Assembly (NCBI GenBank): GCA_029204225.1 | Contig: CM055104.1 | Span: 39,116,527 to 39,180,526, forward strand | Length of the DNA: 64,000 nt | Direction of reading: 5' to 3' | Source of the DNA: Diphasiastrum complanatum | Lineage: Eukaryota > Streptophyta > Lycopodiopsida > Lycopodiales > Lycopodiaceae | Shown: positions 24,757 to 30,570 of the stretch, one piece after another | Numbering within the stretch: the first letter of the stretch is position 1 | Layout of the letters: each line of letters opens with the position of its first letter | Position numbers and translations under genes: made by a program | The notes under the pieces: model-generated | The model's database searches: none | What the model was told of the DNA's origin: nothing | The model's input: only the letters and a program-made list of their open reading frames with translations

Positions 24757-24814
24757 AGAGAGAGAGAGAGAGAGAGAGAGAGAGAGAGAGAGAGAGAGAG
24801 AGAGAGAGAGAGAG
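24757..24814. repeat. (AG)n microsatellite, tail of LINE A
   Basis: About 29 AG units followed by (AAAG)3. On the LINE sense (minus) strand this is the (TTTC)n(CT)n tail after the 3' hairpin. Confidence 0.95.
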
Positions 24815-25462
24815 AAAGAAAGAAAGCTTTATTAATGTCTTTTCCATGCCACAAGGCATATAAGACTAATGAAGTACATGTCAAGTATGTGGTAACCATG
24901 GGAGCATATAAAACGTCTCCAAAACTGTAATAAATAAAACATTTAGTACAAACTAAAACTAAAATAGACACGTATGCGAGTGTGTGTGCAGAATAATCAT
25001 CTGTATCTATGTCAAGATGTCAAGGCTATGATGCTGCTGTGTTGCTCCTGTAAAAAGATGTAATGCGAGCCACAACATGAGAGAGCACTGGAGCTTGTCG
25101 GCGTCGTCTGTGAGCATGAGCATGTGTAGTAGTACGTCTCCGTAGGATGTCTGGTGATCCTGGTAGTAGCGTGATGGTGGGGGGTACACTGTCTCTGATC
25201 TCTATGAGCATGTGAGCGGCTATCATCCTCGTCGTTGTCATAATCATCATCCTCGGGCACTAGATCACGCGATATTTGCCTAGTGAAGAATGAAGTAATC
25301 AATGGCTGTGAGGTAAAATGCTGGGGTGTCCGTATAAATCTCTCCGTAGTATGAACATCTTACGTACCAACAGAGCGACACATTGTGGGTCCTCATAGGC
25401 TATGAGGAAGCGTAGAGTGGTAGGCATGTCTCGAAATAGGCAATGATATCGCCCTCTGATCT
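24815..25462 (-). mobile_element. LINE A: 5'-truncated LINE 3' end
   Basis: Minus strand carries the end of a LINE ORF2 (a His- and Arg-rich C-terminal region, 25302-25012) and the 3' UTR with the ATGCC-N4-GGCAT hairpin (24846-24859). The homology starts at the peptide after the zinc finger (the region that reads [10 protein letters not shown] in other copies), exactly where the next (AG)n tract begins. This is therefore a 5'-truncated insertion of about 650 bp. Confidence 0.8.
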
Positions 25463-25571
25463 GAGAGAGAGAGAGAGAGAGAGAGAGAGAGAGAGAGAGA
25501 GAGAGAGAGAGAGAGAGAGAGAGAGAGAGAGAGAGAGAGAGAGAGAGAGAGAGAGAGAGAGAGAGAGAGAA
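25463..25571. repeat. (AG)n microsatellite between LINE A and LINE B
   Basis: About 54 AG units. It is at once the 3' tail of LINE B and the 5' flank of LINE A on the minus strand. Confidence 0.95.
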
Positions 25572-25737
25572 AGATCTTTATTGATGTCCATGAAATACCC
25601 TAAGGTACATAGGACTGGAAAAGGTACATGTCAAGTATGCACGGTGGGAGCATGAAAGCTCTACCACCTAAAAGAACAAAGACACAAGACTACACGTAAA
25701 GAGGAAATAATGATGATAGACAAGGAGAGCCTTATCA

Positions 25738-26610
25738 TCATATAAATGTCTCTCCGCCTATGAAATAGTGATGTAAGGTATGTTGAGACACTGTCTCTGA
25801 ACGAACTGTGTCTCTCCGTCTCTGAGTGGATGGTCGGTGGCATCTCTGCTGCTGTGAAGTTGTAGATCGTGGCCTGTGGGCTGTTTGTCCCTCTAGTCGC
25901 CGACACTGTCTCTGCCGTCTATGCATGGAGGCGTCCGGGATCTCAGCCTCTCCATCAGAATCAATACTCTCCTGCCTCTGCCTCCGACGTGATAAACACT
26001 CCTGTATGCTCAACTGTATCAAGGGGGAGGTGTCAGCGTCTAGTCTCGCCATACGCAGGTCCGCCATCTCTCGGATCATCAACGCAACACATCTGGGGTC
26101 CTCATACGATATCAAGGTAGAAAGTGTGAGTGGATGATCCTGAAACAAGCAGTAGTATCTCCCTCGGATCTCATAGTAGGCTGGGCTCTTGAAGAGAAAA
26201 TGAAACTCATTCTCTACGTCGTGTGTATCACACATACTACAAATCCGAGCATCTCTCGGGATGCCACTGTATCTGCCAGTCTCAATGGCTAGCTGGTGAG
26301 AGGAAACCCGAAACTGACGCATCACTATCCGCAATCTGTGTGAGATACTATCCACTAGATATCCGGGAACAATAGGATATCCAGCATGATCTCGAGAGAG
26401 AAAATGTGTTCGATAAAACTCCGTCTTCACCCCAGATGGAACCTGCCAAGTGCTCTGAAGATATGCTCTATACAAGTGTCCTCGAATATACTGATGCGTA
26501 CCCGTCGGTAGATCCGTAATGTGAATACTCCACGTGGAGAGGAGACGACAAGCCTGGGAATACCATGAAAAGGAGTGTCCCACAGAATGTAGGTGCTGTG
26601 ATGATGCCAA
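25738..26610 (-). pseudogene. LINE B ORF2 C-terminal region with zinc-finger-like motif
   Basis: A 290-codon frame homologous to the region after RT in the other LINE copies: SGVKTEFYRTHFL-type block, VSSHQLAIETGRYSG, then CSMCDTHDVENEFHFLF, a Cx2C..H finger of the type found at LINE ORF2 C-termini with the last Cys replaced, then YYEIRGRYYCLF. It is in a different frame from the RT segment, so a frameshift near 26640 separates them. Confidence 0.8.
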
Positions 26611-26658
26611 AACCGCTGCAGCATAGTGTGTGTCTCTACCCTGAAGATCCTCCAGGCG

Positions 26659-27960: not shown

Positions 27961-27964
27961 CCAC

Positions 27965-28054
27965 GAGAGAGAGAGAGAGAGAGAGAGAGAGAGAGAGAGA
28001 GAGAGAGAGAGAGAGAGAGAGAGAGAGAGAGAGAGAGAGAGAGAGAGAGAGAGA
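27965..28054. repeat. (AG)n microsatellite between LINE B and ORF1 copy A
   Basis: About 45 AG units. It is the 3' tail of ORF1 copy A and the 5' flank of LINE B on the minus strand. Confidence 0.95.
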
Positions 28055-29482
28055 TTCATTGATGTCTTTCATGCCAAAAGGCATATAAGACGAGAAAAGT
28101 ACATCCAAGTATAATGGAAAGCTAGACAGATCAATGCCGTCGAAACAAAATTACTGCATTATCTAAACTACTAGAACATAACAAAATGACAACTAAGAAG
28201 AGAGAGAGATATATAGTCCGAGATTATATGGTACGAAGACCATGTACATGTTCAATTGGACAACTCTTCATTTCTCTAAACTCTGCTCTAACTTAGTCGA
28301 AACTACACTCTTAAAATTAGCTTTATTTTTGATCTCAACAAAATGAATGTTACCATCTCTGTAGATGATTCGTTTGGCTGTATCCCTAGCTTCCTGAAGG
28401 GCCTTTTTCCGTTCCACAATTTGTACATAAGTAAGATCTTCATCTAGAAAATATCCTTTAGCTTAGACCGGCGTCGTAGCACCTCTCGCCTAGACTCCAA
28501 TGAAGTAAAGCGTAAGACAAGACTGTTAACGTCTTTCTTGGTACGCCAAGTTGTATCCAAACCATTGCTATGATGTTGACGGTTTTCGTCCAGAAACTTT
28601 TTGGCTTCTCCAAGAGCATCTTGAGAGTTAGGGATGCCGCTAACACGGAAATCTCGCAACTGGCTCTTAGTGAATGTGGCGGAGATGAAGGAGACTGGAG
28701 CACTCGATTTACCTGGACGTTTAAGGATGTCTGCCCATGAAGCTTCCTTATGGTGTTGTTCTTCACTTTCATGGATAGTTTCAGTTGGTGTTGGTAGTCT
28801 TTCTTTAGCCTCTGTGACCTCTTTCTTAACATCTGCTATGGAAGATTCGAGTCATTGCATATGTGAAAGCAATTGCTGGATCATTTGTTGTTGGGCATTG
28901 ATCACCGTCTTCTGATATTCAACTATGTTGTATAGCTTCTTGGTGTCTTCACACAATAGAGGGATCAGATGAGTCAGATCTTTTGTTGTAGTGGATAGAA
29001 ACATCGAGTCCTGATAGGGGGTTCAGGGAGCAATGTTGGAGTAGACAAAGGAGAGATAGGGATGACGTGAGGCAGATTAGATCTAGACGCTGGAGGAGGC
29101 GTAGATGGAGATACAGAGGTTGTTGAGGCTGAAGCGATGGAGTCCAAAGAAGATGGTGCGGTTGGAGGTGCTGCTTGCGATTTTGCAAGTGAGAAGGGAG
29201 TGGAGCTGCCCCTGCTACATGCTTTATTATTCTTGGCCATTTCTACGATCACTGGATTTGAGAGCAAAAGCAATGGACCCTAGTAGTGCATTAGAACAAC
29301 CATGGCCTCTTGACAAGGTTGCTGCTAGACTCAATGATGGAGCCTGGAGCCTCAGTTGGAACAGCCAGCAGGGCTGTATCGATGGCTGCTCCCAGTAGCG
29401 ATGGAGCCTGGAGCAGCCCAGGGCTAGAGGATGCAGCGATGGCTGTCTCAGCAGTGATGGTGAAGGCAGCTAGGGCGCCATT
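28055..29482 (-). mobile_element. ORF1-only LINE relative, copy A
   Basis: Minus-strand element between two (AG)n tracts. The 5' leader starts ATGGCGCC at about 29480. The coding region (29240-28320) is broken by frame changes but aligns with copies B and C: a Ser/Pro-rich N-terminus (SSLDSIASASTTSVSP), a coiled-coil middle, then LRDFRVSGIPNSQDALGEAKKFL, and an RRM-like to basic C-terminal part. The 3' UTR has a 'ggtacgaagacca' block and the hairpin at 28071-28084. There is no endonuclease or RT. Confidence 0.75.
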
Positions 29483-29529
29483 GAGAGAGAGAGAGAGAGA
29501 GAGAGAGAGAGAGAGAGAGAGAGAGAGAG
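29483..29529. repeat. (AG)n microsatellite between ORF1 copies A and B
   Basis: About 23 AG units followed by (GAA)n. It is the 3' tail of copy B and the 5' flank of copy A on the minus strand. Confidence 0.95.
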
Positions 29530-30570
29530 GAAGAAGAAGAAGAAGCTTATTTAACGTCTTTTCCATGCCAAAAGGCATATAAGACGAACGAGTACATTAG
29601 ATAAAGTGGAACCAAGACGGAGCAATGCCGTCAAACAACATAACTAAAAACCCAACTAACTAAGAAGAGGATAATATCCAGGATTACATGGTACGAAGAC
29701 CATTTATATATTCAACTGGCATCTCTTCAGTGCTCTAACTCTCTCACTAACTCTGAACAATCTCGGATATCTCATTAATAGCAACAAGTTTAATATCTAC
29801 AAAGCGAATGATACCATCCCTGTAGATCAACCTCTTTCCATTCGTTAGAGCCTCCTGTTTTACTTTTTTCCGTTCTTGAACTTGAATGAACGTAAGGTCT
29901 TCATGAAGACTCTCTTCAAGAAACTTTTTAGCTTCACCAACAGCGTCATGGGAGTTCGTAATACCTTTGACTCGGACATTGAGAGCCTTTTGCTCTCGCA
30001 AATGGCTCTCGGTGAACGTAGCTGAGATAAATGATGGTGGAGGTGGTAGAACAACACTATTAGGACCTTTAAGCACATCTGCCCAGGAACGGACATCGGT
30101 ATGATGCTGTTCCACTTGACTTTCAAGCTGTTGGATCTTTGCTGAAGTAGTCGAATGAGAGGAAGCTTCGATTTTGATAGCTGCAACTTCTTTCTTGAGA
30201 TCGTCGATAGACGAATCTAGTTTTTGAAGATGAGATTGAACAGCTTGGAACATAGCTTCAAGAGAAAGAAGTTTTTTTCGATGGTTGTTGAGATATTCAT
30301 AGGAACGTAACTGATTTGCACGAATGACGAAGATCATAAAGGCTGGAGGCAGAAGTGATTCATCATTTGGGGTATTCGGGGTCAAAAGGTCGGCTATAAT
30401 GGATTCACTATTAACAAGAATAGGATCTGATGGAGAGATAGGGATTGCGACTAGAATAGAAGGTGAAGGTGAAGGTGAGAAGGATGCTGAAGCAATGCTA
30501 GAAGCTAAAGATGGTTGAGGCGAAGCTGGAGGTGCAGAAGCCATTGAGGCTGAGGCGGTGGAGTCAAAGG
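29530..30570 (-). mobile_element. ORF1-only LINE relative, copy B
   Basis: The 3' end has the hairpin (29565-29578), a GAA-rich tail and the 'ggtacgaagacca' block. The 5' end abuts gypsy integrase sequence at about 30560 and not a (CT)n tract, the one exception among the ORF1-only copies. No ORF2 sequence lies between ORF1 and the tail. Confidence 0.75.

Follow-up and report, generated by a model that had tools for sequence, protein, structure and literature searches.

An APE-type LINE family of Diphasiastrum complanatum associated with (AG)n/(CT)n microsatellites

Copies and tracts in the window

The stretch of Diphasiastrum complanatum DNA analyzed here, which we call the window, comprises 64 kb (C13:39116527-39180526, in a 1.74-Gb assembly) and harbors copies of one family of long interspersed nuclear elements (LINEs) together with microsatellites that read (AG)n on one strand and (CT)n on the other. 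A preliminary description of this DNA had proposed a head-to-tail chain of LINE-type elements joined through (AG)n tracts, and its coordinates and tract lengths proved right. All six of the perfect AG/CT tracts of at least 20 bp in the window adjoin copies of the family, the shorter perfect tracts being three in number and 10-12 bp each. On the minus strand, the chain runs in the order ORF1 B, (CT)23, ORF1 A, (CT)45, LINE B, (CT)54 and LINE A (ORF, open reading frame), and its three tracts link the 3' end of one copy to the 5' border of the next on the same strand. Each of these tracts (at 25463, 27965 and 29483) is preceded on that strand by a 3' hairpin, with matches at 25572-25634, 28050-28109 and 29542-29604, and the next copy starts directly behind it. 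LINE B and ORF1 A begin with leader-type sequence, and LINE A is truncated inside the ORF2 C-terminus, as judged by tblastn. The members of the family in the window and their tracts are the following.

24757-24815, minus strand: (CT)n of 59 bp after the LINE A 3' end, then ordinary sequence.
24816-25462, minus strand: LINE A, 5'-truncated, with ORF2 C-terminus (tblastn), 3' untranslated region (UTR) and hairpin; its 5' border lies directly at (CT)n.
25463-25570, minus strand: (CT)54 junction of 108 bp between the LINE B 3' end and the LINE A 5' border.
25571-27964, minus strand: LINE B, with a leader-type 5' end, reverse transcriptase (RT) from about motif 3 (RVT_1, E 6.8e-19), C-terminus and hairpin.
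27965-28054, minus strand: (CT)45 junction of 90 bp between the ORF1 A 3' end and the LINE B 5' border.
28055-29482, minus strand: ORF1 copy A, with 5' leader, ORF1 remnant and hairpin, without an ORF2 match.
29483-29529, minus strand: (CT)23 junction of 47 bp between the ORF1 B 3' end and the ORF1 A 5' border.
29530-30673, minus strand: ORF1 copy B, with an ORF1 of 308 aa (stop to stop), hairpin and (CTT)n tail; its 5' border is unreadable.
31429-33115, plus strand: LINE C, a 5'-truncated copy ending in a hairpin and a (CTTT)n tail, whose 5' border has no more than (CT)6.
33116-33137, plus strand: (CT)11 of 22 bp after LINE C, then ordinary sequence.
35136-35189, plus strand: (CT)27 of 54 bp at the ORF1 C 5' border, with no hairpin match upstream.
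35190-36780, plus strand: ORF1 copy C, with 5' leader, ORF1 of 329 aa (stop to stop) and a decayed 3' end.
62282-64000, minus strand: E8, which closes a downstream chain and is represented here by its 3' part, with a hairpin at 62282-62341 and a (CTTT) tail without (CT)n.

Five of six left borders had been described as lying at (CT). Among the six copies, four borders are clear, that of LINE C is weak, since (CT)6 at 31429 is too short for the copy to count as (CT)-bordered, and that of ORF1 B cannot be read. The (CT)n said to stand at the 5' border of ORF1 C was found there, ending at 35189, and this tract is read as a free microsatellite that would have served as target. A minus-strand frame of 110 aa at 30753-31085 resembles, by eye, the end of a Ty3/gypsy polyprotein and may have removed the 5' end of ORF1 B.

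Structure and relatives of the family

A near-intact copy, E3, lies on the minus strand downstream of the window (C13:39189167-39194107) and is flanked by a (CT)n tract on either side. It measures 4,941 bp and has a 5' leader rich in GC, followed by frames of 366 aa for ORF1 and 1,164 aa for ORF2 (both stop to stop). A Pfam search of the first 791 residues of ORF2 located an RT domain (RVT_1, E 7.8e-34, 117.6 bits, cut-off 29.6) and, N-terminal to it at residues 60-257, an endonuclease of the apurinic/apyrimidinic (APE) type (PF14529, 30.8 bits, cut-off 27.4; PF03372, 27.5 bits, cut-off 24.5); in the relative L001, the endonuclease stays below cut-off (PF14529, 13.6 bits; PF03372, 13.0 bits). 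The restriction-like endonuclease of Dong/R4, HERO and NeSL LINEs was not seen in E3, which has the APE domain instead, in searches that left out the C-terminal third of ORF2 and included none dedicated to restriction-like motifs. A C-terminal CCHC-like stretch is visible by eye in E3 ORF2, and in LINE C the score for zf-RVT, at 15.0 bits, falls short of the 27.5-bit cut-off.

As in LINEs, 5'-truncated copies with a common 3' end are present. The stems of the 3' hairpin covary across 16 copies, with 95% of cells paired (0/500 shuffles as high), both-side changes in 11 cells where shuffles give 3.0 (0/500 as high) and four pairs with both-side change against 1.5 (2/500 as high), figures that overstate independence because the copies are related; seven further pair types do not rise above the shuffles (7.5). 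A model of the hairpin matches 17 copies in 271 kb, 16 of which are its training set and one of which, at window position 62282, is new. The sequences show an APE-type, two-ORF LINE family, with 5' leader, ORF1, an ORF2 of endonuclease plus RT, the 3' hairpin and a variable short tail.

The product of ORF1 is less readily placed. No ORF1 homologue scored among 4,249 candidates, and only weak matches, all below cut-off, were obtained against Pfam and PDB. Its AlphaFold model is poor (mean predicted local distance difference test score, pLDDT, 57; predicted template modelling score, pTM, 0.25), a helix at residues 74-166 being mostly confident and the remainder too weak to search; a coiled coil is predicted. 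Scans of viral contigs yielded no match. Four ORF1-bearing copies have no ORF2 match (two at window 28055-30673, one at 35190-36780 and one at L043:6991-7351), and three of them carry the family 3' hairpin, which is decayed in ORF1 C; ORF1 B and the L043 copy have 138 bp of 3' region in common, at 83% identity. Such copies, listed in the preliminary description as ORF1 copies, do not form a LINE type of their own, for full-length E3 carries ORF1 followed by ORF2, and hence the ORF1-only copies look like internally deleted derivatives. They possibly constitute a non-autonomous ORF1-only subfamily. HAL1 elements are ORF1-only derivatives of mammalian L1, and the copies described here are similar in combining ORF1 with the family 3' end in the absence of ORF2, only four such copies having been seen in this plant.

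Relatives of the RT were found in Adiantum, Taxus, Cryptomeria, Trebouxia, Chlorella vulgaris and contigs filed under a Trichormus metagenome-assembled genome (MAG), which we presume to derive from Azolla. The best-scoring named matches are Chlorella vulgaris RT proteins, at 41-42% identity, with unnamed matches reaching 54% and the score of P0121 swollen by a doubled RT. A hairpin relative on a probable Azolla contig (G001:C88, L010:2839-2931) has a TTTC tail followed by a 16-bp (CT) run; no such run follows the TTTC tails of two other hairpins there (L010:2301 and L002:3395). The first of these hints that the habit may be old among ferns and their kin. Several LINE proteins (on L001 and L002, accessions CAKZGI010000187.1 and CAKZGI010000406.1, and P0015, P0029 and P0096) are filed under bacterial names, either the Trichormus MAG or the Enterobacter cloacae complex, and look like plant contamination.

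Borders, tails and chains

The 5' borders were surveyed in 260 kb, made up of the window and 76 kb of its flanks, which are a non-random choice, and of 12 sampled 10-kb regions at round coordinates on contigs C1-C12. The borders of ORF1 B and E1, that of the first copy in L045 and that of a fragment of 46 aa (L041:5603-5740) could not be read and do not enter the count. Fourteen of the 17 readable borders lie in (CT)n of at least 18 bp, all 14 in the CT sense orientation (ORF1 A, LINE B, LINE A, ORF1 C, E2-E8, L043:7351, L043:6953 and L045:1955); in the 12 sampled regions alone, the count is three of four. The same 12 regions contain 19 AG/CT tracts of at least 14 bp, amounting to 1,170 bp per 120 kb, so that a random border would meet a correctly oriented tract in about 0.6% of cases. 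The corresponding binomial p for 14 of 17, about 5e-29, overstates the significance, as copies of one chain are not independent. These borders support the earlier proposal that the family has (AG)n/(CT)n as its main setting, with a single orientation and with the tracts of its own copies included. That proposal had also named an internal 5' UTR of a longer element as a possible source of (CT)n. Such a source is ruled out, because copies truncated within their coding sequence also start directly at (CT)n.

The 3' ends lead to a similar picture on a genomic scale. Exact matches to the hairpin core number 4,225 genome-wide (2,089 forward and 2,136 reverse), as opposed to none for a reversed-pattern control, and the 100 places listed are spread across 40 Mb of contig C1, with no single centromeric or subtelomeric cluster. 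For the first 40 of these 100 places, all on C1, the 3' flanks were taken, and a (CT) run of at least 12 bp was found within 80 nt of the hairpin in 33. Behind that run another copy seems to begin in 16 of the 33 cases, nine by sequence match starting no more than 15 nt from the tract (L058, L067, L069, L071, with only 38 bp, L072, L083, L086, L090 and L091) and seven by leader motifs (at least three motifs in L055, L063, L070 and L084; two in L059, L064 and L088), under a motif count devised after the first 20 cases had been seen. None of 40 random pieces was positive in any of three tests. In addition, L061 passes through (CT)4 into an apparent ORF1 start, as judged by eye, and in L056 and L065 family sequence adjoins without a (CT) run. 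Hairpins are also paired along the contig: among the 100 places, 14 pairs fall within 6 kb versus 1.5 expected, and 13 of the 14 are on the same strand (p 0.0009), at a distance picked after inspection of the list; other distances give 7/8 within 3 kb, 14/18 within 8 kb and 15/24 within 15 kb.

Whether (CT)n is target DNA or a copied tail can be addressed through the tails themselves. Of the 17 modelled 3' ends, 15 are followed by (CT)n of at least 19 bp, and the remaining two (L045:2800, with (CTTT)4, and window 62282) keep a (CTTT) tail. On the RNA side, the tails vary among (CTTT)n, (CTT)n, AATAAA and AATATAG, and E3 and E7 end in TTCTAATTCTAATT. Since RNA 3' ends differ in this manner between subfamilies and (CT)n follows nonetheless, the (CT)n adjoining copies is probably pre-existing target DNA, and a copied RNA tail is disfavored as its source. 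A (CUUU)n(CU)n end of the RNA, as had been suggested, is not supported, since E3, E7 and the copies ending in AATAAA or AATATAG all adjoin (CT)n, and annealing of the RNA to (AG)n is unsupported and unneeded as a required step, L045:2800 ending in (CTTT)4 without a (CT) tract. At L043:2123 the tail passes from (CT)39 into (AT)31, a compound microsatellite, as expected for insertion there. Free microsatellites seem to be used too, for the (CT)n that borders ORF1 C and L043:7351 on the 5' side has no hairpin upstream of it.

Several observations weigh against integration directed simply at such tracts. Two of the 17 5' borders (a short L043 copy ending at 2123 and an old copy at window 46546) lack (CT)n and one, that of LINE C, is weak; 13 of the 17 stem from one 140-kb neighborhood; and target-site duplications are unreadable inside a (CT)n microsatellite. 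Seven of the 40 3' ends have no (CT) run of 12 bp, and in L055, one of the 33, roughly 48 bp of different sequence intervene before the run. The leader-motif test is a weak one, given that the free tract L053:3315 scores two and two of six known leaders score zero. Finally, among the free tracts that can be read in the 12 sampled regions, 14 in all, only one is occupied by a copy, versus 16 of the 33 own tails (Fisher p 0.008), a difference suggestive of something beyond a simple preference for microsatellites. The p value becomes 0.047 if L053:3315 is taken as occupied, 0.037 at a leader score of at least three and 0.24 with the nine sequence matches only. Either tracts beside copies are favored, or a tract once hit in open chromatin is hit again, or the gap is noise; targeting of the microsatellite does not rest on a preference for own tails, which these variants weaken.

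The occupancy gap (p 0.008-0.047 with the leader cases and 0.24 without) and the clustering of copies would nonetheless fit a different scheme, in which (CT)n is made with the element, by slippage or as a copied tail, later copies are drawn to older ends and free microsatellites are entered by accident. Zepp elements do insert nested into existing copies (PMC8226300, PMC3446292). We deem this scheme unlikely, as the RNA ends of E3 and E7 have no CT repeat, L043:2123 adjoins a compound (CT)39(AT)31, two 5' borders lie in free (CT)n, and the (CTTT) tails of L045:2800 and window 62282 lack (CT)n behind them.

A second minus-strand chain offers a view of the order of events. Eight copies, E1-E8, succeed one another from L041 through L039 into the right end of the window. 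All seven joints between them consist of (CT)n, which in the first joint is preceded by (CTC)n; E2 apparently contains an interruption of about 6 kb, and the interior of E8 is rearranged. E3 and E7 are 99.0% identical over the entire 1,429 bp of E7, and they occupy different tracts of the chain, with E4, E5 and E6 between them. Identity to E3 over the aligned parts is about 68% for E4 and E6, and E5 gives no alignment of at least 120 bp. The simplest reading is that E3 and E7 represent two separate recent insertions into tracts beside older copies, and that the chain has grown by separate insertions, given that nearly identical copies sit in different tracts with diverged ones between. Uniform orientation and direct 3'-to-5' joints would also be produced by template jumping, with several RNAs joined end to end in one insertion event. 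Aligning neighbors in the chain are, however, only 68-74% identical while the non-neighbors E3 and E7 reach 99%, so that the joints differ in age; this pattern disfavors single-event concatemers and, together with the two 5' borders, of ORF1 C and L043:7351, that lie in free (CT)n, makes template jumping very improbable. In a similar vein, AG tracts are common enough (19 of at least 14 bp in 120 kb) for copies inserted elsewhere to have been stacked by unequal exchange between them. E7, however, is truncated within E3 sequence (E3 position 3513) at CTCT, its first base directly at (CT)n, and coding-truncated copies start no more than 15 nt from (CT)n at several unlinked places, which leaves hardly any credit to exchange as the origin of the chains.

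Outside the LINE copies, the window contains short exon-like stretches at about 38180-38520, which by eye we take to resemble a plant calcium ATPase, and tandem repeats at 34850-34999 (period 77 bp), 55166-55392 (117 bp) and 56671-56822 (76 bp).

Proposed targeting mechanism and related systems

Both locally and in the 3'-end sample, a microsatellite-targeting LINE family in this plant is well supported, and we consider it likely that this is an APE-type, two-ORF family with integration aimed at (AG)n/(CT)n. The endonuclease would nick the AG strand, the 3' end of which would prime reverse transcription at the hairpin-tail end of the RNA. The 3' end of the cDNA would then rejoin the CT strand, in E7 at a CTCT that the joint has in common with the target, the inner E3 site reading TCTCTGG. 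Every insertion would leave (CT)n at both of its sides, and in this way the target would survive and serve as a landing site for later copies. A broader proposition, which we advance tentatively and with rather more doubt than confidence, is that a land-plant lineage of APE LINEs acquired a specificity for (AG)n and maintains the landing pads that it uses, that tracts by older copies are favored, and that these tracts are shared by subfamilies with unrelated RNA tails and by ORF1-only derivatives.

Repeat-targeting LINEs exist in animals, where Waldo and its kin, of the R1 clade, are microsatellite-specific. A literature search of open-licence papers found no plant microsatellite-targeting LINE among the matches listed. 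Related behavior is on record both for microsatellite-specific LINEs (PMC4640811) and for the nesting of Zepp (PMC8226300, PMC3446292). R1-clade elements have an APE-type endonuclease (PMC4640811). The microsatellite-specific ones insert into simple repeats, as does, in fixed orientation, the family described here, a likeness of features; they are animal elements, whereas the present family belongs to a plant and nests head-to-tail in itself via the CT repeat. Zepp and Zepp-like arrays of green algae contain many 5'-truncated 3' ends, which arise by insertion into existing copies (PMC8226300), and Zepp forms one cluster per chromosome or lies near telomeres (PMC3446292, PMC10088271). Nested insertion into own copies and arrays of 3' ends are found in the plant family as well, which differs in being dispersed, as its hairpin cores attest, and in having (CT)n as its joints. 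The HERO families and the (TG)n-specific Togen also have dinucleotide or microsatellite targets, with a restriction-like endonuclease (PMC4640811) in place of the APE type of the plant family. Among plants, the Mutator-like MuTAnT elements of Medicago target the TA dinucleotide microsatellite (PMC4486113), a comparable choice of target by a DNA transposon and not by a LINE.

If the targeting proposed here is true, some of the AG microsatellites of this plant would be at once footprints and landing pads of a retrotransposon, and AG microsatellites in such genomes would not be safe as neutral single-locus markers. The family would also provide a plant system, with thousands of copies, for the recognition of a simple repeat by APE-type LINEs, as well as a system for how self-targeting builds arrays outside centromeres.

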